DNA of 64,000 nt, from NCBI GenBank assembly GCA_914767715.1, contig OU612069.1, forward strand, positions 1,490,001 through 1,554,000, in the 5' to 3' direction. Under the pieces are notes generated by a model that searched no databases, was not told the DNA's origin, and worked only from the letters and a program-made list of their open reading frames with translations. Positions 38,927 through 64,000 of this stretch are shown here, in pieces. This stretch comes from Membranipora membranacea. Its lineage: Eukaryota > Bryozoa > Gymnolaemata > Cheilostomatida > Membraniporidae. The position numbers and the translations under genes are program-made. Position 1 is the first letter of the stretch. Each line of letters begins with the position of its first letter.

Positions 38927-39428
38927 TAGTTAGATTTATCGGATAAAGCTTTTGACATAAGACAGTAGAGGTATACACCCAAGGGTGCTGGGGGCTGGAA
39001 CAATCAACAATGAAAGCTCCCCAAGTGGGACTCGAACCCACAACTCCTGCGGCACTAATCGCCTGGCAGTGAATAGCAAGCGCGCTAACCGATTGCGCCA
39101 TCTCACCATCCCCAAAAAAAGAATGGGTTGATGGCGCTAATTAGATAGCCCGCTATTCACTACTCGGAGTTGTGTTCTCTCATCCCACAGCACATTCCAA
39201 TCCACCATTGCCACCCTATGAAACACAGCGTACGTGTTAGGGTTATTGGACTTACATGGCCCATTGCTGGGACCCCTTGTAGTAGGTTTAGCTGTCTTTC
39301 CAGCTTGTCAGCATGTCTTTCCATGCTGTCACATGTCTTTCCATGAGTCAGTCAGTAGACAAGTACACAGGAGAGGTATACAAGTACATAGTTAGATTTA
39401 TCGGATAAAGCTTTTGACATAAGACAGT
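38927..39428 (-). repeat. tRNA-like SINE flanked by perfect 40-bp direct repeats
   Basis: The tRNA-like head (39,105-39,010, minus) has box A TGGCGCAATCGGTTAGCGCG and box B GGGTTCGAGTCCC with a perfect T-stem, but no matching acceptor stem. An identical 40-bp sequence (TAGTTAGATTTATCGGATAA then AGCTTTTGACATAAGACAGT) stands at 38,927-38,966 and 39,389-39,428. The protein-like frame across the head is a by-product. Confidence 0.65.
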
Positions 39429-41860: not shown

Positions 41861-44800
41861 ATGGCTGAGTTCTCAGAACAGGAGGGAGATGTTTCACCAA
41901 ATAAGCGAAGAAAGCAAGACCATCCAATGATCTCCCAGCCTGCATCTGAGGAGGAGTCTCACTTAGAATCAGGAGTATATGCTCACAAAAAAGGTAGGTA
42001 TTTCCCTACAATTTCATCCATGCCAATGCTGTCTGAGCAGTCCACTAAAATTACTTTTTTCTTTATATAATGTAACATATTATAAGGGGGAAATTATGGG
42101 GCGCTACATGCATTTGTAACCGAAAGTGACGATCAACGCCACTGTATATGTTGTTTGGCAGACAGGGTACTTGCCATAGTATTAGATGTTGTTAATCTGG
42201 TGCAGAATTGACGAACAAATGAACACCATCACCAGGACATTGTTAGAATTTCAACAATGTATGACATAGGTTAGTGAAAGGGAGGTGGGAGGGGACTTTG
42301 AGCAGACTTTTTTCTTTCAATACTGGCATGCTGGCAGGATATCAGATTGAAGGAAAAAAGATGTGAATAACATAAACGACTATCATTGGCTGTGAACTGT
42401 AGTTCTAAGTTTTCCTTACCAATAAGTTTTCCTTAGATGGTTGATGGAGGGCAACGTCTTATTCAGTTGACCTTGTTTATTTGTCATGTCTTGGGACTGA
42501 TTGCCAAGACAAGGAGAGTGTTATAAGGGTTTTTGTACCAAACACTTTATTTTTATTATCTATCATGCTGGTGTTGATAGTGTGTCTGTTACTTATATGA
42601 GATAGCATTGAAACAATTTCAATTCCGCGAAATTAGACTGAATTAAATATCATCATAATAAGACATGTCTTCTCAAAAACTACACTTACTCACCCAGAAT
42701 CATACCCTCTGTGTATTTAAAAATCTCGATAATCATTCAACTTACAATATTTTCTTGAACTGGAGCAGCCTCAAACACTCATAGCCAGTTGATTCAGATT
42801 CCAGCTAACCAAACTAACCTAAACGTACAGTACACAACACCGTACCTTCTGTATATTGTAATGTAGACCAAGTTTGGTCCATTCTGAGTAGCTTCCGACC
42901 CACTGGATACACTGGAAGGGAGCTTCAGGAATGCAGGCATTTGGATTAAACTTGTTCTAATTGTAATGATAGAGCTGGACTAGTTATCATTTAATATTCA
43001 GTAGGGACTACCTCCACAGACCTGGACTTTGGAGATAGAAAGTACCTGGATGAGAAAACAGGTTATATGATCTCCTCATAGTTTATTGTATGTCCTATAG
43101 AATGAGTGACCTGCATAGAATGAATTACTAAAGAAGTTCACAACTTTCTTGTAGTTTTTAAACTTACAACAACTCGATAACATAGTGCTGAAATCAGTAA
43201 GTGAGATTTAATATCGCCTGTTTTGAAATTTGAAATGGGTCAGCCAAGTCAGACATTATTATTGTTTTGATTCCTTACTGATTGAAAAAACTTCATACCT
43301 CAAGTGGGAGATAGGAAGAGAATAGGTCCGACTTGAACTGTTAGATAGTAAACCAGAGGCATATATGTCATAAGCTTTTATTTGACATGCCTCAGTGTAC
43401 TGTATCTGGTATAATGATGGCCATTCTCATAAAACCGGACCTCCTGAAAGATTTGAAGGGAAGCCGCAGACAACATCACAGTTTGAAGAAGACACAGCAG
43501 ATATAACTGTCACACATATGAGAATATGGGGTGAAGTTCCACATAATCTTAGAGGCCTGGTACCAGATCTGGAGATATTAGACCTGAGGGATGTCCGACA
43601 GTCTGCTCCAACTAATCAGTAAGTTAAAATATGTTCAATCCATGGGGCAAAACCGTGAGCGCCCTATAGTCTGGTTCAATATGTGTTCGCCAACCAGTCA
43701 ATGGGTTTTTTTTTTTAATCAATGTCTCAGCATGGGAAAATTTGTGAGGTCTGATTAATTATGTAATCAAACTATAAGCACTATCGGGTTTCAAGCAAAT
43801 AGTGGCTGAACCCTTCATTTGTACATCATATATATGTATATAAATTCTCACAGTTAAATGTCGCCCCATTTCTAATATTCTTACTCTCCTTACTCTCCGA
43901 GGATTTAACTTGTCCGGGACGGACCGTTACTGGTAAGCTGAAAGGTGTTTTATTATTGTCTTACAACAAACTATCCCTTCACCACAATATTACGAAAGAA
44001 AGGGTGACCCATATGAAAAATCAGACAACAAGAGCATGAGGATTAAAGCTGCATGACCTCTTTCAGTATCACAGTATATAAACCAGTATTAGCCCATAAT
44101 GTTTAATTCAATCGCTGGTAATAGGAAAGGAAGGGCGACTCCTAAATAGGGTTTCTGAAATAAACCTGCAGTGAAAACCTGTAGACGTAATGTTCAAAAT
44201 ATCATGTTTGCGAGGATGGGTTACTGTGGATGTCGTAATGTGTTGCCCATACTCATGTCAGTCCAAAGATTTAGTTCAACAACTATATTCTTTTTGTTAA
44301 ATCCTACCTATGGATACACCCCTGTTATGTAGGCTAGGCAAATTAGATGAACTAGAAAACCTTGACTTATCAGAGAACAAACTTATTGATGCTTTAAAAC
44401 CCATATTTTAGAAGTTTGTCGGAAATTGAACTACATCCTATTTTTAATGCGTAGTGTACGACCATATTTAGATATTCCTACGATGATCAATTTGTATTAC
44501 ACATTCTCTAATCCACATTTAATTTATGGTATTGAGTTTTATGGTCATGCCGCAAATTGTCATCTTAATCAAATCTATTTACTTCAAAAATCAGCTCTTC
44601 GTGTCATACTCAAAATCCGCCCACGTGGTCATGTGACCTCTTTCTTCTCTGAGTATCAAATTATGCCCATTGAAATGCTTTTTAAATACCGCTATTTGTT
44701 ACATTTTAATAATACTCGGCTTAATGGGGCGTTAGAAATTCAAACCCCTGCCATTACAGCAGGGGCGTATATTCTAAAAAATTTCACTCACTGACTTTTT

Positions 44801-47800
44801 AGAGATGAGCATAATGATCGGGCGCAGCCCGATCCACACGCCGTAAGGGTGGCGGGGAGGGTGTGGGAGGGGCCCACCACGGAAATTTTTGCATATCGGT
44901 AGCAAAATAGTGCAAGCAGAGAGGTGAGCACTGAGCTGTTGGGTACTTTCAGAAAACAACTCAATAGCAGTAGAAGATTATGGTAAAAATGCTCCAGTTA
45001 TAAAGCACCCAATTGAAAAAAACTGACCTTGATGGGATTCGTACCCACAACAATTTTATTAACAGTGATTATTAGGCAAACGCTCTACACACTGAGCTAT
45101 TCAGCCATGGCCGTGAGTGCTAATATACGCCACTGCATTACAGCGACTAGGTGGAAGGAAAAATTTGCCCCAAAGAGAGCCACCAACTGTAGGGGGAGAG
45201 GTCAATGTTAACCACAGGTGTTTACCTCTGGAATTCACACCTACTGGGGGAGGAGGGGGCGGCTCCTTCTGCTTTGCGTGGGAGGTTGGCGTCCTCGCTG
45301 TGGGGGTGTGGTTCGCTTCTTGTCGAGTAGGCTGCGTGTCTGGGCTCGCCCTGGGGACAGTAGCCTCCATTTTCCCGATAATCAGATGGTCGCCATATTA
45401 GTCCTGGACTAATCTGACCATGCCGCTGCCTTATTTTATTTCATTATTTTAGTCCTTTGATTTTAATTACAATAAACTGTTGCAGAGACCAAAAAAAAAG
45501 GTCTCTTGAGTTCTTTCCTAGAAAACTCAGGAGCCTCTCTATCAGAGCATGTGGGTTGGAAGACGTCTTGTGGTAAGGTCGTGTTTTCCCTAGTCTTACA
45601 ATATAGAATTAATCCACTCGGTAATAAGAGAGAAAAGGCAAATCTGAAATAGAGTAACTGAAATATACATACCTGCTGAAAAACCTGTGATGTTGTTAAC
45701 ATTGTTACAGCATGTTGGCTTTGGTGGGTTACTGTAGATGATATATTGTGGTGCCGGTACTCATGTCTGACCAATAATTTAGTTCATACGACTGTATTGT
45801 TTTGTTAAATCCATAATATTGAGATAATGACGTGATATTTCGTAGGTTACGCCAGTTACATGAGCTTGAAATCCTTGACTTATCAGAGAACAAAGTAACT
45901 GATGAATGGTCTCTTCAGCACCTTCCTAGAAATCTTAAGAGCCTCTCTATCAGAGCCTGTGGGTTACAGCTGTATAACCACATTTGGTGAGGATAAATTT
46001 GCCCTAGTTGCATACTATTAAGTTGGTTCACTTGGTAATGAGAAAGAAAGGGCAACTCTTTATCATAGTAACTGAAATAAACATTTTTGCTGAAAAAAAA
46101 CCAGCGATGCGTTGAAAACATTGCTACACCATGTTAGCTTGGATGGGTTAACTCTAAAAGATATTTTGTGGTGCCCATACTCGTGTCAGGCCAATAATTT
46201 TTAGTTGATGCAACTGTATTCTGTTGTTAAATCTTCAACAAATAGTGATATAATGATGTGATATTTCGTAGGTTACACGAGTTAGATAAGCTAGAAATCC
46301 TGGACTTATCAGAGAACAAAGTTACTGATGTAAAGTCTCTTCAGCACCTTTCTAAAAAACTCAAGAGCATTTCCATCAGAGCCTGTGGGTTACAGTTGAA
46401 TGACCTCCAATGGTAAGGTTATTATTCCCTAATCTTACAATATAAAGTTGGTTCACTTGGTAATGAGAAAGAAAGGGCAACTCTTTATCATAGTAACTGT
46501 AATAAACATGCCTGCTGAAAAACCTGTGATGATGAAAACCTTGTTACAGCATGTTGGCTTGGATGGTTACTGTAAATGATATACTGTGGTGCCCTACACT
46601 TGTGTCAGGCCAATAAATTAGTTCATATGACTGTAGTCTTTTGTTAAATCCTCATTGGTGAGATAATGATGTGATATTTTGTAGGTTACACGAAATAGAT
46701 GCTCTAGAAAACCTCGACTTATCAGAGAACAAAGTTACTGATGTAAAGTCTCTTCAGCACCTTTCTAAAAAACTCAAGAGCCTTTCCATCAGAGCCTGTG
46801 GGTTACAGTTGGATGACCTCCAATGGTAAGGTTATTATTCCCTAATCTTACAATATAAAGTTGGTTCACTTGGTAATGAGAAAGAAAGGACAACTCTTTA
46901 TCATAGTAACTGAAATAAACATTTTTGCTGAAAAAAAACCAGCGATGCATTGAAAACATTGCTACACCATGTTAGCTTGGATGGGTTAACTCAAAAAGAT
47001 ATTTTGTGGCGCCCATACTCATGTCAGGCCAATAATTTTTAGTTGATGCAACTGTATTCTTTTGTTAAATCTTCAACAAATAGTGATATAATGATGTGAT
47101 ATTTGATAGGTTACACGGAATAGATGCTCTAGAAAACCTCGACTTATCAGAGAACAAAGTTACTGATGTAAAGTCTCTTCAGCACCTTTCTAGAAAACTC
47201 AAGAGCCTTTCCATCAGAGCCTGTGGATTACAGTTGTATGACCTCCAATGGTAAGGTTATATTTTCCATAGTCTTACAATATAAAGTTGGTTCACTCGGT
47301 AATGGGAAAGAAAGGGCAACTCTTTATCATAGTAACTGAAATAAACATGCCTGCTGAAAAACCTGTGATGATGAAAACCTTGTTACAGCATGTTAGCTTG
47401 GATGGTTACTATAAATGATATATTGTGATGCCCTATACTTGTATCAGGCCAATAAATTAGTTCATACGACTGTAGTCTTTTGTTAAATCCCCATTAGTGA
47501 GATAATGATGTGATATTTTGTAGGCTACACGAAATAGATGCTCTAGAAAACCTCGACTTATCAGAGAACAAAGATACTGATGTAAAGTCTCTTCAGCACC
47601 TTTCTAAAAAACTCAAGAGCCTTTCCATCAGAGCCTGTGGGTTACAGTTGGATGACCTCCGATGGTAAGGTCATTTTTCCCTTAATCTTACAATATAAAG
47701 TTGGTTCACTTGGTAATGAGAAAGAAAGGGCAACTCTTTATCATAGTAACTGAAATAAACATGCCTGCTGAAAAACCTGTGATGATGAAAACCTTGTTAC

Positions 47801-50800
47801 AGCATGTTGGCATGGATGGGTTACTGTTGATGATATATTGTGGTGCCCTACACTTGTGTCAGGCCAATAAATTAGTTTATATGACTGTAGTCTTTTGTTA
47901 AATCCTCATTAGTGAGATAATTGTGTGATATTTTGTAGGTTACACAAAATAGATGCTCTAGAAAACCTCGACTTATCAGAGAACAAAGTTACTGATGTAA
48001 AGTCTCTTCAGCACCTTTCTAAAAAACTCAAGAGCCTTTCCATCAGAGCCTGTGGGTTACAGTTGGATGACCTCCAATGGTAAGGTTATTTTCCCTTAAT
48101 CTTACAATATAAAGTTGGTTCACTTGGTAATGAGAAAGAAAGGGCAACTCTTTATCATAGTAACTGAAATAAACATGCCTGCTGAAAAACCTGTGATGAT
48201 GAAAACCTTGTTACAGCATGTTGGCATGGATGGGTTACTGTTGATGATATATTGTGGTGCTCATACTCATGTCAGGCTAATTATTAAGTTCTTGCAACAG
48301 TATTCTTTTGTTAAATCCTCAATGGTTAGATAACACTGTGGCCCAGAAAGCCGGATAAAACTAAACTTATCTGCTGTGAATTTGATTTAAAAAGGCCTAA
48401 ATTGAACTAAACATTTCAGTGAATTTAATCAAACTTCTCTGCATCAAACTTTTCTGTTCTGCATCAAACTTTTCTGTTCTGCATCAAACTTTTCTACTCT
48501 GCATCAAACTTTTTTACTCTGAATCAAACTTTTCCGCTCCATTGATATCAACCACCCTATATTATATATTGCTGTATGTAGGTCCTCAGTCTACCAATAG
48601 TTCATAGTCAAAAGGCTTTCATTTCAATCCATCATCGATGATTTGCAATAGAACTGCATGGCAGTCTTTATCAAGGCCACAGTCACACAGCATGGACAAT
48701 ACGTTTCTCCCAAACATTTGGGACAGCTACCCTATAGGAGTTTAGTTTTCGCGGCATTTAGGATTCGCTTTTCGGTTGTTGCCTAGGTTGCAAAATTTAG
48801 TGTAACTTAAATTAAACTCACTCACCTTAGTTTCCTAAACAATGTAGAATTATACAGGAATACGCCTTCCCTAAGCATGCAAGCTGTCTGTGAAGGATGA
48901 GAGAATCACCAAAGTAGTGGCTACCTGTAGAAGTCTGGTGTCTCTAATCCACTCATCAAGCAACTATAGACAGAAGTTTGTTAAAGCTCAAAAGGAACAT
49001 AAACTGCCTGATCACCAGATCCCCAATGATGTATCTACGAGATGGGGATCAAAGCTAAATATGCTGAGGCGAATCAAGGAACAGATCCCTGCGATTAACA
49101 GTGTTTTTCTTGAGGACAGGAAGTATCGACACCTATCTATAGGATGGGAGAATGCTGACACCATCGACGCCATTTTACATGGCTTAGATGGTTTTGAAGT
49201 GCTAACTGATCTGTTATCAGGAGAAAACCAGGTGACGATTTCTTCAGCTCTGCCGACGTTAAGGCATGTAGATGATCTATGTTTGCCAAATGACCAGGAC
49301 GGAGAGATATCTGCTGGCATAATAACTGGAGTAGCCTTGTATTTCCGGACAAGGCTGCAGGAGAAGCAGGAGGCGCTATTATTCCTGAGGATGGCAGAGA
49401 TGCTTGATCCAAGGTATCTCGAGTATACCAAACCAAAAGATCACAGTGAAGAAGACGGGGATGAAGCACCGGTTCCTGATAATGATAAACCCCTTGGAAT
49501 TACTCTTCCTTCGTTTGACGCTACACAAAAGGAAGAAGTAAGAAGAGCTGTTGCCTTACACACTGGAGATGAGGAGGAGAGTGAGGATACCGAGAAAGAT
49601 GCTGATGTTGATGCTGCACCTTCCACAAGTAAAAAACCAAGGTCACTTGCGGACATGTTACTATCAAGGAAAGCCAGTACTGTTACCAATACTCAATCTG
49701 CAATCCGAAGAAAATCTTCACCCGAAGACCGAGCTATGCATGAGCTCAAATTCTACCTGTCACTTCCAACACTGGCGTCATCAGAGGATGTCCTTGTATG
49801 GTGGCGGTCTCATGCCAAAGATTTTCCAATGCTAAGCGGGCTTGCACGCTACGTGCTTAGCGCATGTGCCACTAGCGTTCCGAGCGAACGACTATTTAGT
49901 CTGAGTGGTCACATTATTATCTAGCTCAGAAATGCTTTAAAGCATTCTATGGTGGATATGTTGGTTTTTCTGGCATTTAATGACAAGTTGAAGTAGTGGG
50001 TGGCTGCATGCGTCCTCTCTGAGCTCTCACTCACCTTAAACTTAATAAACTTTATAATGTTTACCTAATTCTTTCTACTGTAACTGTACCCTACCTGCAT
50101 TCAATAATTAAATATAACCAGTATATTGAAATGGGCATTATGTCATCTATCGAATGGATAGATGACGTAATGATTGATCACTGATCGATAGTATAGATCA
50201 ATCATGGATATAGAATCGCTTGCTGTTCGATTTCGAGATGATCTGTTACCAGGTATTATGCATTGATTACATCAACAATCTGGGAAAACTTAGGTGTGAA
50301 CTTTGTATGGATAGTCACTTGCTTGTATTGATGACAATTAGAAAAGCAAACAAACAGTAGGCCTACATACGAAGAAAGCAATTTAATTATCAAAAAATCC
50401 GTCACCTTTCTTGGATTTTCTTGATCATGTGCATCGTCTTGTATCTATCGCTTGATTTGTGGTAACTGTAAATTGCTGAACAGGCTGAACAGACTGAACA
50501 GCTGAACAGAATTTCTCAGACTACTATTCGTTTGATTCTTTACATGATTGTCTAATTTTGCATGAGCATGGACAATTCTTTATATTCTTCTCATTAAATC
50601 ATTTATTTTAAGTTTGCATTCACCTTGGTTTCTTTCAATTTCATTCTCAGTAATTTTTTCGGCATTACACTACTAGTGAATGGATGGAAAGTAGCCCCCC
50701 CCCCCCCTATAAACAAAGTTTGTTAAGACTGGCTAGATGGAAGGTTGAGCTGGATAATGTTTCTGGTATCCAATTTCCAGAACACATCAGATTTTGTCAT

Positions 50801-53800
50801 AATTGGCACATCGATTGCTTCATTTGCTTGCCCTAAATTGGTTATATTAGGTGCCAACAGGAACTTAGTGACTCATCAAATCATTTGGTTAGGAGGAATG
50901 TGTTTGAGAAGTAATAGTCAGCCAGAGAAATGATTACAAATAATAATTTTAGTCTGAGAAATTCTGTTCAGCCTTTTTGTCCGTTCAGCCTGTTCAGCAA
51001 TTTACAGTTACCGCTTGATTTGCTTTCACTGGACTTAGATGAAACTGATACAAAAATTAGTATGCTGCTGAATGAATCACTTTCCTGTCCTGCTAAATGG
51101 AATGTCAAAGTATCTAGTTAAATAACTGGTGGGTAGCATGGCATCAGTCATTTGCTATCAGCAAGAACCTAACTTAATTATGTTCTTGCTAGCAGCAAGC
51201 AAGGGCATATTGTTGCCAATTCTTTGGAATTGCCTACACACTATTCCCTTTGAAAAAGAAAGGGCAACTCCTAATATTTAGCAATTTTTTTAGGGCAATG
51301 CACACGATTTTGACATTTTAAAGACATCGAGAGGACAACTCGATATTATTCGGTTTCGATGTTATTTCTTGTCAAAAGATCATTGATTAGTGTTTACTCA
51401 AAGCGTGCAGCACTACTTGGCAGCCTCTTGTAAGTACGTTTGTATTTTATTTGGCTACATTGTGTGGATCTAGTCTATTTGGTTACTGTCATAGAACTGG
51501 TTATAATCATTTAAACGCTCAGTTATAAAATCTGCAATATAGCAGTCATGAATTAATGTTATCACAGTTAATCCAAACAAAGTATAATAATTCAGTCAAA
51601 TGTTATATCACATTGTGACATCTCTTTTCCTTTCGGAAACATACTAAAATTGAAAAAGTCTCAATACTCAGCAGTTTATGAAAACAAAATCAGTGGTAGC
51701 GAATTAAGGTTAAACACACAAACTTGATTAAAATGAATGTAGCTTCTAAAATCTACAACTAAAATTCCACTACATTGATGCTTGACCTAAATAGTACTGA
51801 TTAAAAATATCCTCACACACTAGAGAACACCAAAATCCCTTTTGTACCAAAATCGAATGACAGGGTTTGATGTCCGCCCAGACCTTGTGGTCACACTGGA
51901 TCCTGATTGCATGCTGGGGGTATGTCTGGGAGCACTAGAGCTGGATATTTGTGCTGCTGGAGTTGTGGTGCCATTATGCTCTCTTGCCCTTATGTTACTA
52001 TTGTTAATTAGTCGAGATGGTCTTTGAGGTGGATACCGGTTGGTCTCAGTCTGAACTACAGGTTTCCTTACCCTAAGATACGACTGATTGCGTCTAAATA
52101 CCTGGCCGTCAGCTAGCTCAATCATAAAGCTCCTTGAGGTATCTGCATGGCCAATGATCCTAGCCTCTAACCATTTTCTATGTCCTTATTTCATCCACAC
52201 ATCCATCCCTTCAATAAACTCAATTTCATTAGGCTTGCTTGCCTTATTATCATTGTTACCTCTAGCCTGTCGCTGCCCATCAATACTTCTTAAGTCTAAA
52301 TTCTGATGTTTTAGCTGTGTTGGAGTAAAGTTTAGATGGTCACGCAGCCCTCTACCTTGCAAAAGCACTGCAGGGGAGGTTAAACCAATGCCAATCGGCG
52401 CAGACCTTATTGCTCTTATTACATCAAATAAAGTCTGATTTGTCTGTTTAGCTTTAGTTAAGCTGATTTTACAGTCTGATTCATGCGCTCTGCTAGGCCG
52501 TTTGATCTAGAGGTATATGGGCTGACAGTAACAAGCTTTATATCTGCACTTTCAGTGAAATATTTGAGTTCTGCTCTCTCAAATTTACATTTGCTTAGGT
52601 TTAGCCTGAGATTTATCTTCTCACATCTAGCTAGCACAGCTTTTAGAATTTTATCATGCTCCGCATTTGTGGGTGCATGTATCAAAATATCATCAAAATA
52701 TGTCTCAACACCCTCAATATCACAAAATAACTCAGTTACGGTCCTGTGAAAAACTTCTGGGGCAGAACTTATGCCATATGGCAGTATAAGAAATCTGTAT
52801 CGCCCAAATGGTGTGGCAAATGTTGTAAGATAGCTGCTAGCTTCATCTAGTTCTAACTGAAGGAAACCTGACATTTCATCTAGAGTTGAGAACACACGGG
52901 ATGCAGAAATCCTGGAAAATATCTCACTTGCAGTAGGCAAAGCATAATGCTCCCTTTTAATGCACTTGTTTAGCTAAGTGGGGTCCAGACAAACCCTCAG
53001 TGAACCATCTGGCTTCAGTATATTTTCTATGGGGTGTACCCAATCAGTAGGGATTTTCATCTCAACTATAGTGTGTGAGGCTTCCATAGAATCTAATGTA
53101 GAGCGTAATTCTCTTATCTCTTAAACGCTCAGTTATAAAATCTGCAATATAACAGTCATGAATTAATGTTATCACAGTTAATCCAAACAAAGTATAATAA
53201 TTCAGTCAAATGTTATATCACATTGTGACACTGATATATGGGTAAACACCAATCAAAATACTAGCTGTAACTTGTGTACCAGATTATAATCCGCAAGAAG
53301 TTTTGCCAATGCATTGGTCTTTTCTATCACATTGACTAGACTCAACCTATAATCCATCGGATAGGCTGTGCCTGATTATCATCTACTCACCATGACTTAG
53401 TCTTTTTGTTTATACATTCACTTTCGACAAGGAACAGCAGTTACTCCTTGCTTTGAATAGGTAGTTGATAACATAGGCACAGTGGACTGGGCAACAAAAA
53501 AAATTGACACAAACACGGAAAAACGTAGGCAGTTGTTGATGCACATGACTTTGTTAAAATTACTTACTCTGACATCGGTAGAAGCAACTCTCCTGATTAT
53601 CCAAATAGCACACCACATATCACTGCAGACACACCGTCATAATTTAGTACCAAGAATAGAACACATCAGACCTATCCCTAACCTTATGTCAAATGTCCTT
53701 ACTCCTTACTGGTGCTGATCTAATTATAAGGGCAAACAGCACATGTTTACTAGTGACCCCGCAACTTAAGTTGGCATCTTATGATCATCTCACTCTCCAA

Positions 53801-56800
53801 GTGCCTGATCGTATGAATCCTCATGTTATCAGCTCGACACCAAATACAGCCAGATGCCCATAGTCTGAGGCTAGATAACTATCAAACAAAAATTTTGCGT
53901 CTTGGGGAAAAATGCTCTTATTGGGATGTTAGATTCTGTGATGATGAGAAATCGACAAGAATATCAAAACACATATGACAGTTTGATTTTTTCAGGATTA
54001 TTTTTTTACAGTGAACAACAATAACCTAAAACATAGCTATAGTAAGGCTTCTATAGGTATCCGATGTACCTGAAAACTCAATTTTCACCTTGGCCATAAT
54101 CGCCAGCAGATACTGTAGCATTTATAAAAGTCAGGAGGAGATAATCACCGACAGGCATATTTTGATTTAAGTCACTGAGTATTTGTGTCAGGACAATAAT
54201 TAAGTTGATACAACTGTATTCTTTTGTTGAATTGTCAATAGTGAGATAATGATGTGATATTTCGTAGGTTATGCTTGTCAGATGAGCTGGAAACCCTGGA
54301 CATATCAGAGAACAAAGTTACTGATGTAATGTTTCTTCACCCTCTTCCTAGAAAACTCAAGAGCCTCTCTATCAGAGCCTGTGGGTTACAAATAGATAAG
54401 CTCCATTGGTAAGGTTATATTTTCCCTAGTATTACAATATGAAATTCATCCTCTTGGTAATGAGAAAGAAAGGGCAACTCTTTATCATAGTAACTGAAAT
54501 AAACATACCTGCTGAAAAATAACCTGTGTTGTTGAAAACATTGTTGCAGCATGTTGGCTTGGATAAGTTAAAGCTCTAGCTACACGAGACGATTTTTACA
54601 TCGATTTGGGGTCACGAGTGGTTAATCGATGGATCTGCACGAGTGATTACTTGTGTTAAGTGGACATCGAACTTGTTGGTCTTTTGCCCGAGTGATCTTG
54701 ACGATCCTCTATGCTGATTGGTTGTTGATTGCTTGCTTCAATAATTACGCGGTTAAACACGTCATCTATCAAATCATGACAGGCTATCAAAAATGGAGGA
54801 GTTGATAATATCTGTAGTAAAATCACATCCTCCTATTTATGATGAAAAAGACTATAACTACAAAGATAGGAGTGGTGGTGTAGTGAAAATATGGAAGGTA
54901 ATAGCTGTATCACTTGGAAATGGAAGCTGTCCTGACATGACATCCATAGTATAGCATAGGAAAATCAATTTTACAGAAGACTGAAATTTTATTTGGTGAA
55001 GATTCAAAGCGACAAAGACCCGGATTTAATATGACATCTATATCCGGTCAATTGTTAACACGCCCATTAAATATCATTGGTCAATCGATTGAACTGAGGG
55101 AGTTCATTGGTCAATCTAGGCACCTGATTTATGACCCCACTATGACTCACTAGACCATCGTGTACTAACTCATAGGCCTGTGTAGCAGTGTGAGACCGGC
55201 TGAGCATGTCTAGACATGCCATCAGCCTGTGATTACATCGTCTCGTGGAGCTACAGCTTATCTGTAGATGATACTTGTGTGGTGCCCATACTAATGTCAA
55301 GCCAATAGTTTTGTTTACATAACTTTATTTTTTTGTTAAATCCTCAATAGTGAGATAATGATGTGATATTTCGTAGGTTACGCTGGTTTTATGAGCTAGA
55401 AATCCTGGACATATCGGAGAACAAAGGTACTGATGTAAGGTTTCTTCAGCACCTTTCTAGAAAACTCAAGAGCCTCTCTATCAGAGCCTGTGGGTTACAA
55501 ATAGATAAGCCCCGTTGGTAAGGTTATATTTTCCCTAGTATTACAATATGAAATTCATCCACTTGGTAATGAGAAAGAAAGGGCAACTCTTTATCATAGT
55601 AACTGAAATAAACATACACTTGCTGAATAAAAAAACAGCGATGCGTTGAAAACATTGTTACACCATGTGTGCTACGAAGAAAGAAAGGGCAACTCTTTAT
55701 CATAGTAACTGTAATAAATATATCTGCTGAAAAATAACCTGTGTTGTTGAAAACATTGTTGCAGCATGTTGGCTTGGATAGGTTAACTGTAGATGATACT
55801 TGTGTAGTGCCCATACTAATGTCAAGCCAATAGTTTTGTTTATATAACTTTATTCTTTTGTTAAATCCTCAATAGTGAGATAATGATGTGATATTTCGTA
55901 GGTTACGCTGGTTTTTTGAGCTAGAAATCCTGGACATATCAGAGAACAAAGTTACTGATGTAAGGTTTCTTTACCTTCTTCCTAAAAAACTCAAGAGCCT
56001 CTCTATCAGAGCCTGTGGGTTACAAATAGATAAACTCCGTTGGTAAGGTTATATTTTCCCTAGTATTCCAATATGAAATTCATCCACTTGGTATTGAGAA
56101 AGGAAGGGCAACTCTTTATCATAGTAACTGAAATAAACATACCTGCTGAAAAATAACCTGTGTTGTTGAAAACATTGTTGCAGCATGTTGGCTTGGATAG
56201 GTTAAAGCTCTAGCTACACGAGACGATTTTTACATCGATTTGGGGTCACGAGTGGTAAATCGGTGGATGTGCACGAGTGATTACTTGTGTTAAGTGGACA
56301 TCGAACCTGTTGGTCTTATGCCCGAGTGATCTGGACGATCCTCTGTGCTGATTGGTTGTTGATTGCTTGCTTCAATAATTACGCGGTTAAACACGTCATC
56401 TACCAAATCGTGACAGGCTATCAAAAATGGAGGAGTTGATAATATCTGTAGTAAAATCACATCCTCCTATTTATGATAAAAAAGACCATAACTACAAAGA
56501 TAGGAGTGGTGCTGTAGTGAAAATATGGAAGGTAATAGCTGTATCACTTGGAAATGGAAGCTGTCCTGACATGACATCCATAGTATAGCATAGGATAATC
56601 AATTTAACAGAAGACTGAAATTTTATTTGGTGAAGATTTAAAGTGACAAAGACCAGGATTTAATATGACATCTATATCCGGTCAATTGTTAACACGCCCA
56701 TTAAATATCATTGGTCAATCGATTGAACTGAGGGAGTTCATTGGTAAATCTAGGCACCTGATTTATGACCCCACTATGACTCACTAGACCATCGTGTACT

Positions 56801-58273
56801 AACTCATAGGCCTGTGTAGCAGTGTGAGACCGGCTGAGCATGTCTAGACATGCCATCAGCCTGTGATTACATCGTCTCGTGGAGCTACAGCTTAACTGTA
56901 GATGATACTTGTGTGGTGCCCATACTAATGTCACGCCAATAGTTTTGTTAACTTTATTCTTTTGTTAAATCCTCAATAGTGAGATAATGATGTGATATTT
57001 TGTAGGTTACACGAGTTAGATAAGCTGGAATTCGTGGACTTATCAGAGAACAAAGTTACTGATGTAAAGTCTCTTCCGGACCTTCCTAGAAATCTCAAGA
57101 GCCTCTCTATCAGAGCCTGTGGGTTACAGCTGGATGGCCTCTCTTGGTAAGGATAAATTCGCCCTAGTGTAACACTTTAAAGTTGGTTCACTTGGTAATG
57201 AGTAAGAAAGGGCAACTCTTTATCATAGAAACTGAACTAAACATACATTTGCGGAAAAAAAAACCAGCGATGCGTTGAAAACATTGTTACACCATGTTTG
57301 CTAGGATTGGTTAACTGTAGATGATACTTGTGTGGTGCCCATACTCATGTCAAGCCAATAGTTTTGTTTATATAACTTTATTCTTTTGTTAAATCCTCAA
57401 TAGTGAGATAATGATGTGATATTTCGTAGGTTACACAAGTTAGATAAGCTAGAAATCCTGGACTTATCAGAGAACAAAGTTACTGATGTTAAGTCTCTTC
57501 AGCACCTTCGTAGAAAACTCAAGAGCCTTTCCATCAGAGCCTGTGGGTTACAGTTGGATGACCTCCAATGGTGAGGTGATATTTTCCCTAATCTTACAAT
57601 ATAAAGTTGGCTCACTTGGTAATGAGAAAGAAAGGGCAACTCTTTATCAAAGTAACTGAAATAAACATACACTTGCTGGGAAAAAAACCAGCGATGCGTA
57701 GAAAATATTGTTACACCATGTTTGCTAGGATTGGTTAACTGTAGATGATACTTGTGTGGTGCCCATACTCATGTCAGGCCAATAATTTTTAGTTGATGCA
57801 ACTGTATTCTTTTGTTAAATCCTCAATAGTGAGATAATGATGTGATGTTTCGTAGGTTACACAAGTTAGATAAGCTGGAAATCCTGGACTTATCAGAGAA
57901 CAAAGTTACTGATGTAAAGTCTCTTCAGCACCTTCGTAGAAAACTCAAGAGCCTTTCCATCAGAGCTTGTGGGTTACAGTTGGATGACCTCCAATGGTAA
58001 GGTGATATTTTCCCTAATCTTACAATATAAAGTTGGCTCACTTGGTAATGAGAAAGAAAGGGCAACTCTTTATCATAGTAACTGAAATAAACATACCTGT
58101 CAATAGTGAGATAATGATGTGATATTTCGTAGGTTTCACGAATTATATGAACTAGAAAACCTCGAATTATCGGAGAACAAAGTTACTGATGTAAGGTTTC
58201 TTCAGTACCTTCCTAGAAAACTCAAGAGCCTTTCCATCAGAGCCTGTGGGTTACAGCTGGATGACCTCCAATG
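41861..58273 (+). CDS. Intracellular LRR protein built from tandem 141-nt cassette exons
   Basis: Exon 1 (41,861-41,993, ATG) encodes an acidic N-terminus with NLS-like NKRRK and no signal peptide. Exon 2 (43,396-43,618) joins in phase 1 and ends with an LRR start (NLRGLVPDLEILDLRDV) in phase 2. The array follows: 45,846-45,986; 46,272-46,412; 46,685-46,825; 47,110-47,250; 47,524-47,664; 47,939-48,079; 54,268-54,408; 55,377-55,517; 55,902-56,042; 57,006-57,146; 57,430-57,570; 57,856-57,996; 58,133-58,273. Each cassette is exactly 141 nt, open, phase 2-2, and encodes two LRRs (LEILDLSENKVTD then LKSLSIRACGL), with a Trp codon across each junction. Introns are repeats of one another. A cassette near 44.3 kb is split, and a half unit near 43.9 kb is degenerate. 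The C-terminal exon is not identified. Repeated LRRs usually mediate protein recognition; the partner is unknown. Confidence 0.7.
44392..44800 (+). pseudogene. 5'-truncated LINE ORF2 C-terminal fragment
   Basis: The frame reads VCRKLNYILFLMRSVRPYL, then LYYTFSNPHLIYGIEFYG and LLQKSALRVI, a C-terminal block typical of CR1/jockey-like LINE ORF2 proteins downstream of the RT. It starts directly after the LRR half-exon, so it is a 5'-truncated insertion in the sense orientation. It lacks the RT catalytic motifs. Confidence 0.75.
44900..45112 (-). repeat. tRNA-derived SINE within the LRR exon insertion
   Basis: On the minus strand, AATAGCTCAGTGTGTAGAGC (box A) and GGGTACGAATCCC (box B-like) are spaced as in a tRNA. 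The acceptor pairing is only partial. The body extends leftward for an uncertain distance. It lies between the LINE fragment and the second half of the split LRR cassette. Confidence 0.5.
48430..48540. repeat. Minisatellite of ~20-bp units
   Basis: About five tandem copies of TCTGCATCAAACTTTTCTGT with small changes (the last one reads TCTGAATCAAAC). It lies just right of the end of the first LRR block and begins the transposon-rich wedge. The open frame through it is a by-product. Confidence 0.85.
48890..49999 (+). pseudogene. hAT-family transposase, C-terminal two thirds
   Basis: The frame of 344 codons has the hAT motif region VSTRWGSKLNMLRR, a long helical part, an acidic Ser/Glu linker and the C-terminal dimerisation block (VLVWWRSHAKDFPML then ATSVPSERLFSLSG). 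An in-frame TAG stands at 49,922-49,924 just after that block. The same frame then continues with NALKHSMVDMLVFLAFND, as in related transposases, so one nonsense change truncates it. The N-terminal BED zinc finger and first catalytic Asp are missing. Terminal inverted repeats were not found. Confidence 0.8.
50136..50172. repeat. Short hairpin beyond the hAT remnant
   Basis: CATTATGTCATCTATC is followed after a four-base gap by GATAGATGACGTAATG, its complement with one mismatch. It may be part of a transposon end or an isolated palindrome. Confidence 0.75.
50459..51018. mobile_element. Non-autonomous TIR transposon, copy 2, with target duplication
   Basis: The ends are inverted (GGTAACTGTAAATTGCTGAA at the left and its complement at the right) with CTGAACAG subrepeats. 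GCTTGATTTG stands immediately outside both ends (one extra T on the left), giving an 8-10-bp target duplication that would suit hAT or Mutator-like elements. The interior matches copy 1 (30,609-31,512) in inverse orientation but lacks its ~330-bp insert. No transposase ORF is present. Confidence 0.8.
51503..53240 (-). mobile_element. Second gypsy-like element, internally deleted, with short LTR copies
   Basis: Nearly identical ~118-bp direct repeats (51,503-51,621 and 53,122-53,240) begin TGTCACAATG on the minus strand. A purine run GAAAGGAAAAGAGA directly precedes the left one, as expected for a polypurine tract and 3' LTR. Between them lie an RT part (FSTLDEMSGFLQL, YFDDILIHAP), an abrupt in-frame join to an integrase end (SPYTSRSNGLAERMNQ), and a C-terminal tail (ELADGQVFRRNQSYL). 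RNase H and most of the integrase are gone, as are gag and protease. A TAG lies near 52,974. Confidence 0.7.
53241..53765. repeat. ~650-bp repeat family, copy 1 (partial)
   Basis: The sequence from TGATATATGGGTAAACACCA onward matches 62,268-62,630 closely, and its later part (ATCGGTAGAAGCAACTCTCC to AAGGGCAAACAGCAC) matches 61,880-62,045. The 5' part of the unit has been replaced by the gypsy element. No coding potential is recognised. Confidence 0.7.
54572..55258. mobile_element. PIF/Harbinger-like element 1 with MADF ORF
   Basis: The element is 687 bp with 22-bp terminal inverted repeats starting AGCTSTAGCTMCACGAGA (two mismatches). Flanks are TAA on the left and TAT on the right, a decayed 3-bp duplication. 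It lies in the LRR intron between the cassettes at 54,268 and 55,377. It lacks a DDE transposase but carries a small MADF-type ORF. The second copy at 56,206-56,892 is nearly identical. Confidence 0.8.
54793..54954 (+). CDS. MADF-domain ORF of Harbinger-like element 1
   Basis: 53 codons from ATG to TAG. It begins MEELIISVVKSHPPIYD, then DYNYKDRSG and KIWKVIAVSLG, which matches the first two helices of a MADF (Myb/SANT-like) DNA-binding domain with its conserved Tyr-Asp, Tyr and Trp positions. PIF/Harbinger elements characteristically carry such a protein beside the transposase. A GTAATA inside the Trp-Lys region could act as a donor, so the ORF may be the first exon of a longer ancestral gene. 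Confidence 0.6.
   Translation: MEELIISVVKSHPPIYDEKDYNYKDRSGGVVKIWKVIAVSLGNGSCPDMTSIV
56206..56892. mobile_element. PIF/Harbinger-like element 2 with MADF ORF
   Basis: The element is 687 bp with the same terminal repeats, flanked on both sides by TAA (56,203-56,205 and 56,893-56,895). The homologous intron near 55,770-55,800 has the uninterrupted target (GGATAGGTTAACTGTAG), an empty-site control within the same window. The equal position of the two copies in sister introns suggests they were spread by duplication of the LRR unit, not by two insertions. Confidence 0.85.
56427..56588 (+). CDS. MADF-domain ORF of Harbinger-like element 2
   Basis: The 53-codon length is the same as the copy at 54,793, and the start, Trp region and stop are all kept. 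The few differences include GAT-AAA for GAT-GAA and GGT-GCT for GGT-GGT. Retention of the frame in both copies fits either a recent duplication or continued use of the DNA-binding protein; the sequence cannot decide. Confidence 0.55.
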   Translation: MEELIISVVKSHPPIYDKKDHNYKDRSGAVVKIWKVIAVSLGNGSCPDMTSIV

Positions 58274-61025
58274 GTAAGGTTATATTTTCCCTAGTCTTAA
58301 AATATAAATTTGTTCACTCGGTAATGAGAAAGAATAGGCATGTCTGGAATAGAGTAACTGCAATAAACATACCTGCTGAAAAACCTCTGATGTTGTAAAC
58401 CTTGTTACAGCATGTTGGCTTAGATGGGTCACTGTAGATGATTTATTGTAGTGCCCATACTCAGTGACTTAAATGAAAATGGGCTAAAATTTGCCCGAGG
58501 TGTTATCAACTCGTGAAATCAATGGGCTTTAATTCAGCACAGTATAAATATTAATGAACTTATTGTTACCAAAAATTCAGTCAATGTCTGAATAAACAAT
58601 AGGGAACTAGGATTAGATGCATGTTTTTGAGTTAGTACAGCGACAGATATGTTCTTCTATGAATTCCTATGTTCCCATCTAAAATTTCAACACATAGTAG
58701 TTAGTTTGGGCGGGAGACATCTTAACAATCGGACATCGGTTGTGGTTATAATTTGAAAACAGGCATAGGTGTGGTCAGTTTAATATAAATATCATACTAA
58801 TGTCCTGGGATTAGGGGAGAGAGGGAAGGAGAGTAGTATTGGAAGATTAGGGTATGTGGGCATGCGAGGCAATAACCAGATGGGGTTGATAGTGAGGGAT
58901 ACGACATGGTGCTGTATGGGAGTTACTTTATCTCACAACTGGGGGAACGGAGTCAACACTGGATATCAGAAGTTTAAAGGTCAAACTTTCCAGAGCAAGA
59001 ATTATATATCATTTACAGTCATACAAGTAAATAAGTTACACTTGAATAATATCTACATCATTTTCCGAACAAGAAAATTTAATAGGCAAAACCAAGCCAG
59101 TCCAGCATCAAACCAACAGTAAAACCACTACAGTAGCCTGTCAAACCAATTTTCAATCATTTAGTTTACCATTGTACCGAAACACTCACAGGAATTGTAT
59201 GTATCAGTATTGACAGTATTCAATTGATTTGCAAAATAATCCATCGCAAACCATATTTATATCACTATAAGAGGGTGTTTTTTCTACCTTTCAATTTGTG
59301 ACCCTGCCATTCCTGACTATCTTGAGGGCTTGAAGGGCCCAAGTAAAACCAGCTGGAAGGTTTTTGTGGGGGGGGGGAGGGGGTGCACTGTAAGCCTAGA
59401 GAAAAATTGAGGGCCATAAAAGTTAAATTGTCTGGCTTTCAGATGAGTGTCTAAGGTGAAAGTTCACAAGCAGAATACCAAAAGAATAAAATAGTCAACG
59501 CTGCAATTTTATTCAAATTACTTAGACTGGCTATCTCAACAAATGATAACTTGAAAAAAAAGAATGACTTACCATTTTACATTACAGGTGAGGTCATTCC
59601 TGAATAGAAATCAGCTAAATCTTGATTTTGTTGTTATGATGTTGGTTAAAATGTTGGTTAAAATCCCAATGGTTAGTTGCTCACCACATCTTGGCGGCGA
59701 GATAGTGTGCCTTAAGGGCGAGGCTGCAATGTCTGTGCCAATTTGCTCTCAGTTTGTAGGCAGGTCAGAGCACACCCGGGGGTCCAACAACTGATCTATC
59801 TTATCATACAATCAAGGGCTTGTTTATTGAATCAAGCATAACATAAATATTCCACTTTAAATCCATGTGATAATCTGAGGGAGATCAATTAAATTAAGCT
59901 TCAGATTTTATGGTGAATAAACTATGGAGCTCTTGCTGATTTAGAGCAAGAGAAAATCACCGATTAGTAGGTTCAATTTGTGTTAAAAGACGGATGGTTT
60001 GTTGACAACTCCTTTGACTATTTTCGGCTGATAAAACTCACCGGCGTGAGCTTCTGATCCCTATGAGTTGGATAGAGTTGATGATTGTCTATCTATTCAT
60101 ATAGGTACAAAAATGTCAATACGCACATCATCCTATGTTTTCCATTTACATAATATTAAGAATGAGTGAAATAGGCCAGGTATTGTGCAGCATTTGGGTG
60201 GTGTGGGCGTATACTATGATACCGCCCTGAACGACGATGTTAAAATATTTTGATAGAGCCCAGTGGCATTTCTTTTTACCCAACAGTAGTAAAATGTTTT
60301 CAACATGATGTACAAATTATGAGAAAAGTTCTGACCACAAGGCATATGCTTCAGTGCCGCTTAGGGCCTTGTACGCAGGTACTGACTTTGGTTTTCACTC
60401 AATAGCACTCCGTCAATGAAAAGGTAGCCCTCAAACAAGACTTCAGAAAACTTAATGAATCACACTGCATATTTGAAAGACATGTGGTTTCCCCAACCGA
60501 TCTTGATTGTTTTGCTGCCCCTAACCTTTTCTCCCCATGGCAAAATTGCTGACGTTTCTTTATGCAGGCTTGTTAACTCATGTGAAGGAAACTTGATTCA
60601 AACAATGTTTACATGAAAATTTGGACCAGACAACACCAAGGGACGTAGACAAATTTTAGGCAAAATCAGAATCCTTGAGGGTAAGAAGCAAGACCAGGTG
60701 GGGTACTATATTTTTATCAAACCAGGCAGTTTTCTCTAAATCCTTCACTCACTTAGAGGGCTAGCTTGTACTTGTATGCAACATTAAATATTTAACTATT
60801 TATCAGTGATACTTATTACTGAAGATATGAATATCAAATTTTATATTTTTAGTAGTACATCCACCCAAATTTAATTCACTCAATCACTAACAGATACTTA
60901 GAGATGACACATTGTAAAAGGAAACTACTTAGCCTACTGAGTGATCTTGAGGCTTACTGATCTACTTAGTAAATATTTTAAAATAAGTGCACGACGAAGA
61001 TTTAGCTACAAGTATGAGCTATTAC
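58274..61025. other. Stretch downstream of the LRR array without a clear gene
   Basis: The first ~180 bp are intron-type repeat of the array. Beyond that I found no further cassette and no secure C-terminal exon. An acceptor-like ACAG at 59,585 in the array's phase would meet TGA at once. A SINE fragment lies at 59.7 kb and a G-homopolymer near 59,369. Confidence 0.4.
59680..59790 (-). repeat. SINE body fragment (family of the 20.3-kb SINE)
   Basis: The reverse complement contains GGTGTGCTCTGACCTGCCT, AAACTGAGAGCAAATTGGC and CGCCCTTAAGGCAC, colinear with 20,410-20,500. The tRNA-like head is missing, so this is a truncated copy. Confidence 0.65.
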
Positions 61026-61141
61026 TCACTCACATACACAGAGCGTATGTGAGTGAATGTAGGTGAAAATGACCGAACACTTTTATTATTGTTTAATAAA
61101 GTTCATAATAATAAAAGTGTTCGGTCATTTTCACCTACATT
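61026..61141. repeat. Two adjacent perfect hairpins
   Basis: Arms 61,026-61,037 and 61,045-61,056 are exact 12-bp complements (TCACTCACATAC). Arms 61,056-61,090 and 61,107-61,141 are exact 35-bp complements (starting AATGTAGGTGAAAATGACCG) with a 16-nt loop. Perfect pairing over 35 bp implies recent origin or selection on structure. Confidence 0.9.
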
Positions 61142-61429
61142 GTCAGTCATGATGGTGATCGCTGAAAGTCCTAAATATCCAAAAAAGAGATCCTAATCTA
61201 TGTACTGATAACAGCAGATATATTGTAATTGGATTGGTGGTAATGTCTGTTCTCACTGTGGAAAAAGGTGTCTGGACTCCAATACTTTGGTCAGAACTTT
61301 ATACCAACAGTAGAACCTTAAGTCTTAGAGTTCAAAAATACAAACACAATATTTAAATTCTGGAATTCTTAGATCTCCAGCAAAACTATTCATGTTAATC
61401 TTTTGTTGTCAGATTCTACGCTAAGTTTG

Positions 61430-62630
61430 GCTGTACAACGTTACTTATGCCAAAGCTAATGGTGAGGGTAGCAAATCTGGGACTAATAACAGAATTGGTA
61501 CGGTGTTTATTATGCTGGGGGAAACAATGAGGATTAGGATTACGTGAAAGTTTCACCCTTTGATACGAAATATACTGATTAACTAAAGCAGGTAGCGGCA
61601 ATCTTTCACTAATCATCTACCTGATGTTATTCGCTGAGCTGATAATTTTGCGAATACCAATGTATTTTCCTTTGTGGACTTAACCATTAATCCATGAACT
61701 AGGCTGCGCATGATTATGATCTACTCATCTTGACTCAATCTTTTTGTTTACGATTTCACATTAAGTAGCCAGTATAAAATATCAGCAGAGCGGTCTGGGC
61801 AATGAACTAAATTGACCAAAAAATTGCAAAACATAGGCAATTGTTTGCTGCGAATAACTTTGTTGATATAATCTGAAATCGGTAGCAACAACTCTCCTGA
61901 TTATTCAACTAGCAAACCTAATAATATTGACAGACTTCTCCAGAATTGAGTATCAAGAATACAGACAGAACAGTCCTATCCCTAAACCTGTGTTGTGTGT
62001 CCTTACTGTGTGATGATGTAGTTATAAGGGCAAACAGCACACCATCATTACCAAGTTTACCAGTGATACCACAACTTCAGCAGAAAATCTGGGCCAATTT
62101 CAGAAATGGTGTGGTGTTTACAAACCTGATAATCGAGGGAGAAACAATAAGGATACATTATCAGTTTCACAAATACCACATAACTATAGCAGATGTACAG
62201 CTGCTAATCTCAGAACGAAATAAAATCTCTCACTTATCATCCACCAGCTGGCATTATTCACTAAGTTGATATATGGGTAAACACCAATTAAAATATTAGA
62301 ACATAGGTAGCTGTAACTTGTGTACCAGATTATAATCCACAAAAAGTTTTGCCAATGCATTGGTCTTTTCTATCACATTGACTAGACTTAACCATTAATC
62401 CATGGGAAAGGCTGTGCCTGATTATCATCTACTCACCATGACTTAGTCTTTTTGTTTATACATTCACTTTTGACAAGGAACATCAGTTAGTCCTTGCTTT
62501 GAATAGGTAGTTTATAACATCGGCACAGTGGACTGGGCAACAAACAAAATTGACACAAATACGGCAAAACGTAGGCAGTTGTTGATGCACATGACTTTGT
62601 TAAAATTACTGACTCTGACCAATGAAGAGG
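61430..62630. repeat. ~650-bp repeat family, two head-to-tail diverged units
   Basis: The unit at about 61,430-62,085 and the one at 62,086-62,630 share ordered blocks: AAATCTGGG, GGTGTTTA, GAAACAATRAGGAT, a Pro-free AT-rich middle, TGATTATSATCTACTCA, TCTTTTTGTTTA and TCTGGGCAA or ACTGGGCAA. The copy at 53,241-53,765 is closest to the second unit. There is no recognisable protein; a long frame at 61,946-62,269 is not shared by the other units. Confidence 0.65.
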
Positions 62631-62794
62631 GAGTTCATTGCTCTGACCTTGTATGTTAGTATGTTTGTATTTTTGTTCCTCCTAAAACCAACAGTGCGAT
62701 GTACCGGAGTGAATTCCACTAGAAAAAAAAATTAAGTCAATAAAATACACAGCAGTAAAATATAAAATGATAAAAATGGTTACTAAAAACTATA

Positions 62795-64000
62795 TTAAAA
62801 ATTAGAGTATTTATAAAAAAAAGTGTTTCGTAGCGTAGTCCGACAGCGGGGCATCTGGGTGGCGAGTGACAGCTGATAATGGCGTACAACATCTTCATGG
62901 TGCATATCACTGTTGATGACTTTCATCGCTCGCCGTTCTACCTGTCTCACCTTCTCCAGAGACCACTCGGTAATAAGTGAACCCCACATTGGGCATGCAT
63001 AAGTGAGCATGGACCGAATGTTGGCTGTGTAGTATAGTCTAAGGCCTTGTGCGTTCAGCCCTAGTCTTTTCAGTTCTCTCATGCCATATAGACGGCTAGC
63101 TAGGCGGTCACATATGTCATCAATGTGGTCAGAGAAAGTTATCCTCTGATCAACTGTGATGCCTAGTAACTTAGCATTTGAGGATACTTCGAGATTTTGC
63201 CCATCCATGGTGAAAGTGGGGATGTACTTAGGGTCTGATAAACTTAGGTGCAGCATCTTAGTCTTAGATGCGTTTCTCAGCATGTTGTTGTCTCTAGCCC
63301 AGCGAGAGATGTCATCTAGTGCTGTTTGGAAATAATTCACAGAGGAGAGATCAGATTTTTGAGAGGCAGTATACAGAGTCAGATCATCGGCATATTTTAT
63401 GATCTTGCATTCAGGAGACACGGTCAGATCGTTGATATAGATCAGCCAGAGCCATGGGCCCAGCTTCGTCCCCTGAGGCGCACCCATAGTCACATGTTTA
63501 TACTCAGACTGCTCACCAAGCTTGACACGGCACTGTCTGTGACTCAGAAAATTATCAATCAGGTTGATCAGTTCACTGTTTACCCCTAGTGTTTGGAGTT
63601 TTCTTATCAGGTTTAGATCTAGGCGATCAAAAGCCTTGGATATGTCGACAAAGGCGGTAGTGACGTGGCTAGTTTTCTTGTTGTCTAGATATTGGCACCA
63701 GTCATGAGTGGCATGTAGCAGGGCGTCGGTCGTGGAGAGGTGCTTTTGATATGCATATTGACTTTTATCCAGTTTATTGCTGATATTCGATTTCAGTCTC
63801 TCAAGGATTACTTCTTCTGCAATCTTGCCAATAGTATGTAGAAGTGAGATTGGTCTGTATTGCCCTAGAGTTGATGGATTTTTCACTTTTTTCAAGGGGA
63901 TAATCTCAGCCTTTTTCCACTCTTCGGGATAGGTGTTGGTGGCTAGCATGGCATTCATAATATCAGTTATTGGTATGCATAAGTCTTCTGCCACTGCTTT
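62795..64000 (-). mobile_element. Non-LTR retrotransposon (LINE) ORF2, 3' part, runs off the window
   Basis: An open frame of about 400 codons ends at 62,795. It has RT motifs YRPISLLHTIGKI, FVDISKAFDRLD, GAPQGTKLGPWLWLIYIND and catalytic YADD, followed by the C-terminal block LLGITVDQRITFSDHI and QVERRAMKVI. The endonuclease part lies beyond the right edge. No stop or frameshift is seen, so this copy may be younger than the LINE at 32-35 kb. It differs from that element in its C-terminal block, pointing to a CR1/jockey-like group. Confidence 0.85.

Follow-up and report, generated by a model that had tools for sequence, protein, structure and literature searches.

Similar exons encoding leucine-rich repeats (LRRs) stand in tandem in the 64,000-nt stretch of DNA analysed here (the window, C5:1490001-1554000), and the question they raise is how such a bank of interchangeable coding units is built and what it is used for. 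An initial annotation had seen in them a potential combinatorial LRR repertoire, comparable in principle to Dscam or to lamprey VLR diversity. We analysed the window together with flanking DNA beyond its edge, and the genome (339 Mb, 18 contigs; repeat match counts are lower bounds) was searched for further copies of the exon, hereafter the cassette.

All 13 cassettes annotated in the window were borne out: each was open over a length of exactly 141 nt, followed a TAG acceptor, ended at a donor reading GTAAGG or GTGAGG and was in phase 2 at both ends, with a Trp codon split as TG and G across the junction. On the plus strand, cassettes 1 to 6 occupy 45846..45986, 46272..46412, 46685..46825, 47110..47250, 47524..47664 and 47939..48079. 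They are followed by a 6.2-kb intron (48080..54267) with transposon pieces, a hAT transposase on the plus strand and a reverse-transcriptase piece on the minus strand, and then by cassettes 7 to 13, also on the plus strand, at 54268..54408, 55377..55517, 55902..56042, 57006..57146, 57430..57570, 57856..57996 (its protein identical to that of cassette 11) and 58133..58273. The array had been taken to end at 58273; this limit was rejected as a cut made by the window edge, since an 8.8-kb intron (beginning at 58274..64000, with a reverse-transcriptase ORF on the minus strand) leads in the flank to ten more cassettes (14-23, window scale 67072-70994) and then to a terminal exon ending in TGA (71125-71365, window scale), giving 23 cassettes, not 13. 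At the 5' end, the predicted exon 1 (41861..41993, plus strand, 133 nt) supplies the ATG and a hydrophilic N-terminus and ends in phase 1, and exon 2, the leader exon (43396..43618, plus strand, 223 nt), holds the first LRR-like stretch and ends in phase 2.

The predicted gene model (41861-71365, window scale) joins 26 exons across 25 introns, all GT-AG, into a single 1274-aa frame with one terminal stop, composed of 119 residues of leader, the 23 two-LRR cassettes and a C-terminal end of 79 residues. Nineteen of the 23 cassettes are 141 nt long, three are 138 nt and one is 135 nt, and the junction codon between cassettes is Arg instead of Trp at one place in the gene. With these lengths and the 26-exon concatenation open, the cassettes are frame-neutral, as had been proposed. 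The leader exon and the terminal exon each occur once in the 334 kb examined. ORFs at 71.9-74.8 kb were considered as additional exons and rejected, because their frame mismatches by eye and the terminal exon closes in TGA.

A further cassette lies upstream of cassette 1 and is interrupted by about 1.1 kb of inserted DNA. Its 5' half (44334..44393, plus strand) and its 3' half (about 45483..45573, plus strand, donor still intact) flank two nested repeat elements (44394..45482), each of which has relatives elsewhere in the flank. If a long protein is made from this gene, the broken cassette must therefore be bypassed. By eye, the half cassette at 45486-45572 (+) follows an AG from the inserted DNA and forms a potential 87-nt phase 2-2 exon; that AG is possibly a transposon-made acceptor.

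Pfam concurred with the annotated content of two LRRs in the 47 residues of each cassette. On the full model, LRR_8 scored 235 bits and LRR_4 219 bits (cut-off 27 for both), and the 13 joined cassettes were likewise above the LRR cut-offs. At E <= 0.01 the 1274-aa model matched LRR families and, weakly, some unrelated families within the repeats, so that LRRs were the sole domain above noise; at this threshold the leader and terminal exons had no Pfam match, and the model contained no ROC-COR domains. Identity as an NLR was rejected, as Pfam found no NACHT or NB-ARC in the model, the leader or the terminal exon at E <= 0.01. In a hydrophobicity scan, used in place of a dedicated signal-peptide predictor, the best 19-residue window starting in residues 1-30 reached -0.48, and the maximum of the model (19 residues, mean 1.54) fell in the C-terminal end. 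With the N-terminus hydrophilic and this maximum in the C-terminal end, nothing indicates a signal peptide and no membrane segment stands out, in agreement with the secretion signal reported missing at the outset. We infer an intracellular receptor role for the LRR protein, in the cytosol or nucleus.

Searches of a collection of 5.8 billion proteins, which score only candidates of similar length sharing most words, returned no close protein and no transcript-derived record. The first gave 288 matches to generic LRR proteins, with identities of 23-37% among the matches listed (120), and the second gave 437 candidates, none at E <= 0.001. Sequence matches to solved structures comprised internalins, a bacterial Roco ("Rab family protein") and SDS22/PPP1R7; these have the LRR type and register in common with the array, which is generic repeat similarity and gives no evidence for common descent as a gene.

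A P-loop ORF in the window (9558-10193, minus strand) looks NB-ARC-like by eye and has a sub-threshold Pfam match to AAA_22. It was rejected as a part of the LRR gene, being on the opposite strand. Relatives of this ORF lie near -15 kb and at 217, 223, 272 and 281 kb (window scale), which places the LRR gene in a neighbourhood of several genes of this type; a protein search with the ORF matched six proteins, all without names.

The genome search with a 47-residue cassette query (E <= 0.01) yielded 105 matches. Of these, 104 lay on contig C5, between 1.135 and 1.561 Mb, and 23 belonged to the gene under study (array A). The others formed array B (C5:1267897-1295496, minus strand; 62 matches, one weak), array C (C5:1363492-1369367, minus strand; 14 matches), a group of three (C5:1179933-1180925) and single matches at C5 1135350, at C5 1319845 and on C9. 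Arrays of 62, 23, 14 and 3 matches at the same locus, very unequal in cassette number, strengthen the initial interpretation. From these arrays we read 20 kb of array B, the array B 5' end and array C. The two 10-kb pieces of array B contained 45 cassettes, 41 of 141 nt and four of 147 nt (two per duplicate copy), one of the 45 with a stop; in array C, GT stood at +141 in 13 of 14 cassettes, one of the 13 without the customary AG at the start. Directly 5' of array C (69% identity) and array B (63%) stood a relative of leader exon 2, with a second leader-like exon further upstream of array B, and tblastn with exon 1 found no match in the array B 5'-end and array C pieces.

Mean identity within arrays was 0.858 (A), 0.945 (B) and 0.904 (C), and the cassettes grouped by array: a tree of 52 unique sequences (23 from A, 16 from B and 13 from C, after exclusion of three cassettes of arrays B and C without GT at +141) required 11 label changes, compared with a mean of 23.8 and a minimum of 18 after shuffling. 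One array-B row in this tree, 1276845 (identical copy 1286976), was retained though cut at a chance GT, its true exon being 147 nt; its codons 44-47 are therefore unreliable.

The single in-frame stop among the 105 matches lies in array B, in the cassette at C5:1272571; the corresponding place in the duplicated block is taken by another cassette, an open one (1282702). The stop may mark either tolerated decay or a skipped exon. Together with the broken cassette of array A, it indicates that some decay is under way in the family, and one may ask whether the arrays have ceased to be functional genes altogether. The large introns full of transposon pieces would fit such a reading, as would the failure of the protein-collection searches to find a transcript or close protein record. 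Against it stand the intact 1274-aa frame with its 25 GT-AG introns and the result of neutral simulation along the cassette tree, in which a mean of 11.1 of 23 cassettes acquired a stop and none of 2000 runs stayed stop-free. The open cassettes are thus not due to chance, and we regard a wholly decaying locus as very improbable.

The units have been copied with their introns. Self-comparison revealed multi-unit blocks duplicated together with intronic DNA, such as the two-cassette duplication of 54186-55677 and 55820-57306 (92.9% identity over 1492 bp, introns included). In array B the assembly contained a tandem duplication of a 10,131-bp block, with 99.5% identity over 9720 bp; at least 8133 bp in a row were free of mismatches, and 23 pairs of cassettes stood at the 10,131-bp offset. 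The duplication is very recent, provided that the assembly is correct; misassembly may instead account for the identical block. The introns had been described as being as alike as the exons, and this held: mean pairwise diversity was 0.143 for the 23 exons, 0.149 for the last 100 nt of the upstream intron (22 units, one short intron excluded) and 0.130 for the first 110 nt of the downstream intron, with 89% mean column identity across 16 full introns. In a PHI-type test, 0 of 500 permutations were as low as the observed value for 22 units (one short-intron unit excluded) and 2 of 500 shuffles for the 23 exons alone; so little conflict between neighbouring sites is a signature of recombination or conversion between units. 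The copying of whole exon-intron units and the PHI-type signal support the proposed spread by tandem duplication or gene conversion.

We also examined how selection acts on the cassettes, including the per-codon dN/dS comparison that the initial annotation had proposed. Diversity at codon positions 1, 2 and 3 was 0.148, 0.138 and 0.145. Pooled pairwise pN/pS was 0.67 for the 13 window cassettes, which alone would suggest purifying selection, and M0 omega for the 23 cassettes was 1.32, not significantly above 1 (2dlnL 2.0); this average conceals two classes of codon. In our home-made implementation of the site models, M2a improved on M1a in array A by 2dlnL 21.4, with an omega class of about 3; replacing the tree changed the gain to 24.1, and giving each half its own tree changed it to 20.9. 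In 40 null simulations covering array A, generated under M1a with recombination introduced via two trees and analysed on one tree, 2dlnL reached at most 9.6. The class recurred in the separate arrays: array C alone gave 2dlnL 27.4 (13 cassettes, M0 omega 2.6) with a selected class of omega about 7, and array B gave 12.3 (15 cassettes), with unstable fits that marked 20 of 47 codons. All 51 cassettes jointly gave 49.0; the stop-bearing array-B row was left out of these fits. Codons 3, 5, 17, 21, 24, 25, 29, 44 and 46 had P > 0.9 in the joint set. These results signal a class of codons apparently under diversifying selection, which likewise strengthens the initial interpretation.

Variation was not spread evenly over the repeats. 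It had been said to cluster at the cassette ends, and codons 2-6 and 42-46 agree with this, while codons 21-29 in the middle vary as well. The codons of the concave side, which we take from the LRR consensus to be 8, 9, 11, 13, 14 and 31, 32, 34, 36, 37, are the quiet part: diversity at codon positions 1 and 2 was 0.042 for these ten solvent-exposed concave codons, 0.078 for the core and 0.226 for the other 23 non-core codons, compared with 0.13-0.15 for introns. In arrays B and C, amino-acid diversity on concave positions was also below that on other positions. Variation therefore avoids the concave face.

Could this pattern arise in a structural or scaffold LRR protein with no role in recognition, whose length drifts by unequal crossing-over and whose loops are under relaxed constraint? 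In LRRs, constraint is often weakest on the loops and the convex side. The pooled pN/pS of 0.67 and an M0 omega not above 1 are compatible with such a protein, as is the strong homogenisation of array B (mean identity 0.945). Relaxed constraint, however, caps omega at 1, whereas the M2a classes of arrays A and C (about 3 and about 7) lie above that limit, with a likelihood gain in array A that exceeds its 40 null simulations; moreover, the non-core, non-concave codons are more variable than the introns (0.226 versus 0.13-0.15). We accordingly think a mere scaffold quite unlikely.

The same distribution bears on the comparison with lamprey VLRs, which vary mainly on their concave surface according to the excerpted text of PMC3900441. 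As far as that excerpt goes, the two systems share LRR modules as a source of diversity and gene-conversion-like exchange between modules, but the surface on which VLRs mainly vary is the most conserved one in the array (PMC3900441). The VLR comparison of the initial annotation thus fails for the variable surface, and a VLR-like variable concave face was rejected (concave 0.042, other non-core 0.226). The array gene differs further in having no secretion signal, and nothing in the genome sequence points to somatic assembly.

A repertoire produced in RNA, with cassettes skipped or combined in many ways so that one gene yields many LRR proteins, would be served well by this architecture, as each cassette keeps the frame, whether of 141 nt (19), 138 nt (3) or 135 nt (1), and splice sites are uniform; the bypass of the broken cassette, needed if a long protein is made, would also suit it. 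In Dscam-type clusters many homologous exons stand in tandem and one per cluster is chosen. The array shares with them the many homologous tandem exons within one gene, but any of its cassettes joins any other in frame, and mutually exclusive splicing of the Dscam type does not require an open full concatenation. We saw no device for splicing choice: the one intron folded was no more structured than its shuffles (z -0.47), and structured introns as elements of splicing choice were rejected on this result. The protein-collection searches found no transcript-derived record, and regular inclusion explains the open concatenation and the single in-frame stop among 105 matches at least as well.

The nearest precedents are the LRR exons of brown-algal ROCO genes and the 171-nt LRR exons of NLRP genes. 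Zambounis et al. 2012 reportedly described brown-algal ROCO genes with shuffled LRR exons. In the excerpted text of PMC11378527, such genes (LRR-ROC-COR) are alternatively spliced and under positive selection, with tandem phase-2 LRR exons; exon shuffling is also described for LRR-only sequences of brown algae, and an immune role is proposed for the ROCO genes. By that account the array has in common with them tandem phase-2 LRR exons of constant length, intragenic shuffling and positive selection in site models; it differs in its exon (141 nt and two LRRs, against 72 nt and one LRR), in placing selected sites off the concave side rather than on it, in belonging to a different type of organism, and in that the gene model lacks their ROC-COR domains (PMC11378527). 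In NLRP3, frame-preserving 171-nt exons encode two LRRs each, and exon 5 is skipped in humans, according to the excerpt of PMC6642158. With genes of the NLRP/ribonuclease-inhibitor type the array shares, on the evidence of that excerpt, a repeated frame-preserving exon of constant length, two alternating LRRs and a non-secreted product; their 171-nt exons carry LRRs of 28/29 residues, whereas the array has 141 nt (19 of 23) and 47 residues per two LRRs, no NACHT, 23 to about 61 alike copies and a recent block duplication (PMC6642158). Frame-neutral LRR exons in vertebrate NLRs and tandem LRR exons under diversifying selection in brown algae have thus been reported already. Among the matches listed from open-licence papers, no title or abstract described a gene of an animal in which LRR exons recur in dozens of similar copies, which is weak evidence of absence. 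The alternative splicing of the brown-algal genes and the human NLRP3 exon skip lend the splice repertoire some plausibility (PMC11378527, PMC6642158, both as excerpted), and on the whole we consider it unlikely.

The reading that we favour, and hold to be probable though by a long way not certain, is a long, non-secreted, all-LRR protein that is remodelled in the germline by unequal crossing-over, gene conversion and diversifying selection, with its cassettes spliced constitutively. An exon and its intron together form a phase-closed unit whose duplication, loss or overwriting leaves the frame unharmed, so that unequal crossing-over and gene conversion could proceed in the germline without frame damage. 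Turnover of such units would yield a small family of arrays (62, 23, 14 and 3 matches), which, but for one of the 105 matches, falls within one 0.43-Mb stretch. Selection would preserve the LRR core and the concave strands and diversify loop and convex-side residues, which may form a binding surface tracking a changing partner. All cassettes are probably spliced together into one long solenoid; the open full concatenation and the uniform splice sites make constitutive splicing the default. We infer this splicing mode, as well as recognition in the cytosol or nucleus, from the genomic sequence.

A bolder version of germline remodelling is conceivable, though we would not bet on it. An animal genome would then keep, at a single locus, a bank of LRR cassettes in a few genes, whose frame-neutral two-LRR exons would number from 3 to about 61 and diversify under selection off the concave face. 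Germline turnover of array length and content, perhaps joined by cassette choice in RNA, would be so fast that the intracellular LRR proteins differ from one individual to the next, and the bank would be to animals what the shuffled-LRR genes are to brown algae. With its array of up to about 61 cassettes, its paralogs of very unequal length at the same locus and what appears to be a very recent 10-kb duplication, this animal-like locus would lend itself to clean measurements, in a natural system, of the rate at which a binding protein made of repeats is remodelled, and it would be suited to asking about cassette choice in RNA. The placement of selection off the concave LRR face is a prediction open to binding experiments.

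Several other features were observed around the gene. About 173 kb downstream of it, an ORF in the flank (L021 162-2126, minus strand) matched Roc (28.5 bits, cut-off 27) and, weakly, COR-A. The gene directly after the LRR gene includes the ORF L001 (flank) 7935-8510 (+), which is 41% alike over 88 aa to a window ORF at 15025-15660 (+), both without a Pfam match. A 200-aa ORF at window 3291-3890 (-), also without a Pfam match, has a relative near 230 kb (window scale; 45% over 66 aa). Five transposon ORFs, at window 32853-34712 (-), 62798-63997 (-), 52461-52973 (-) and 48875-49924 (+) and at L006 (flank) 3093-4442 (-), comprise three reverse-transcriptase matches, a hAT dimerisation region and a P-element/TNP-like transposase. 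Two WAP-domain ORFs, in the flank at L003 2959-3333 (+) and 9595-9936 (+), are the chief pointer to an animal genome. A tRNA match at window 39024-39101 (-) scored 32.5 bits (gathering 29) and is perhaps a tRNA-derived repeat.
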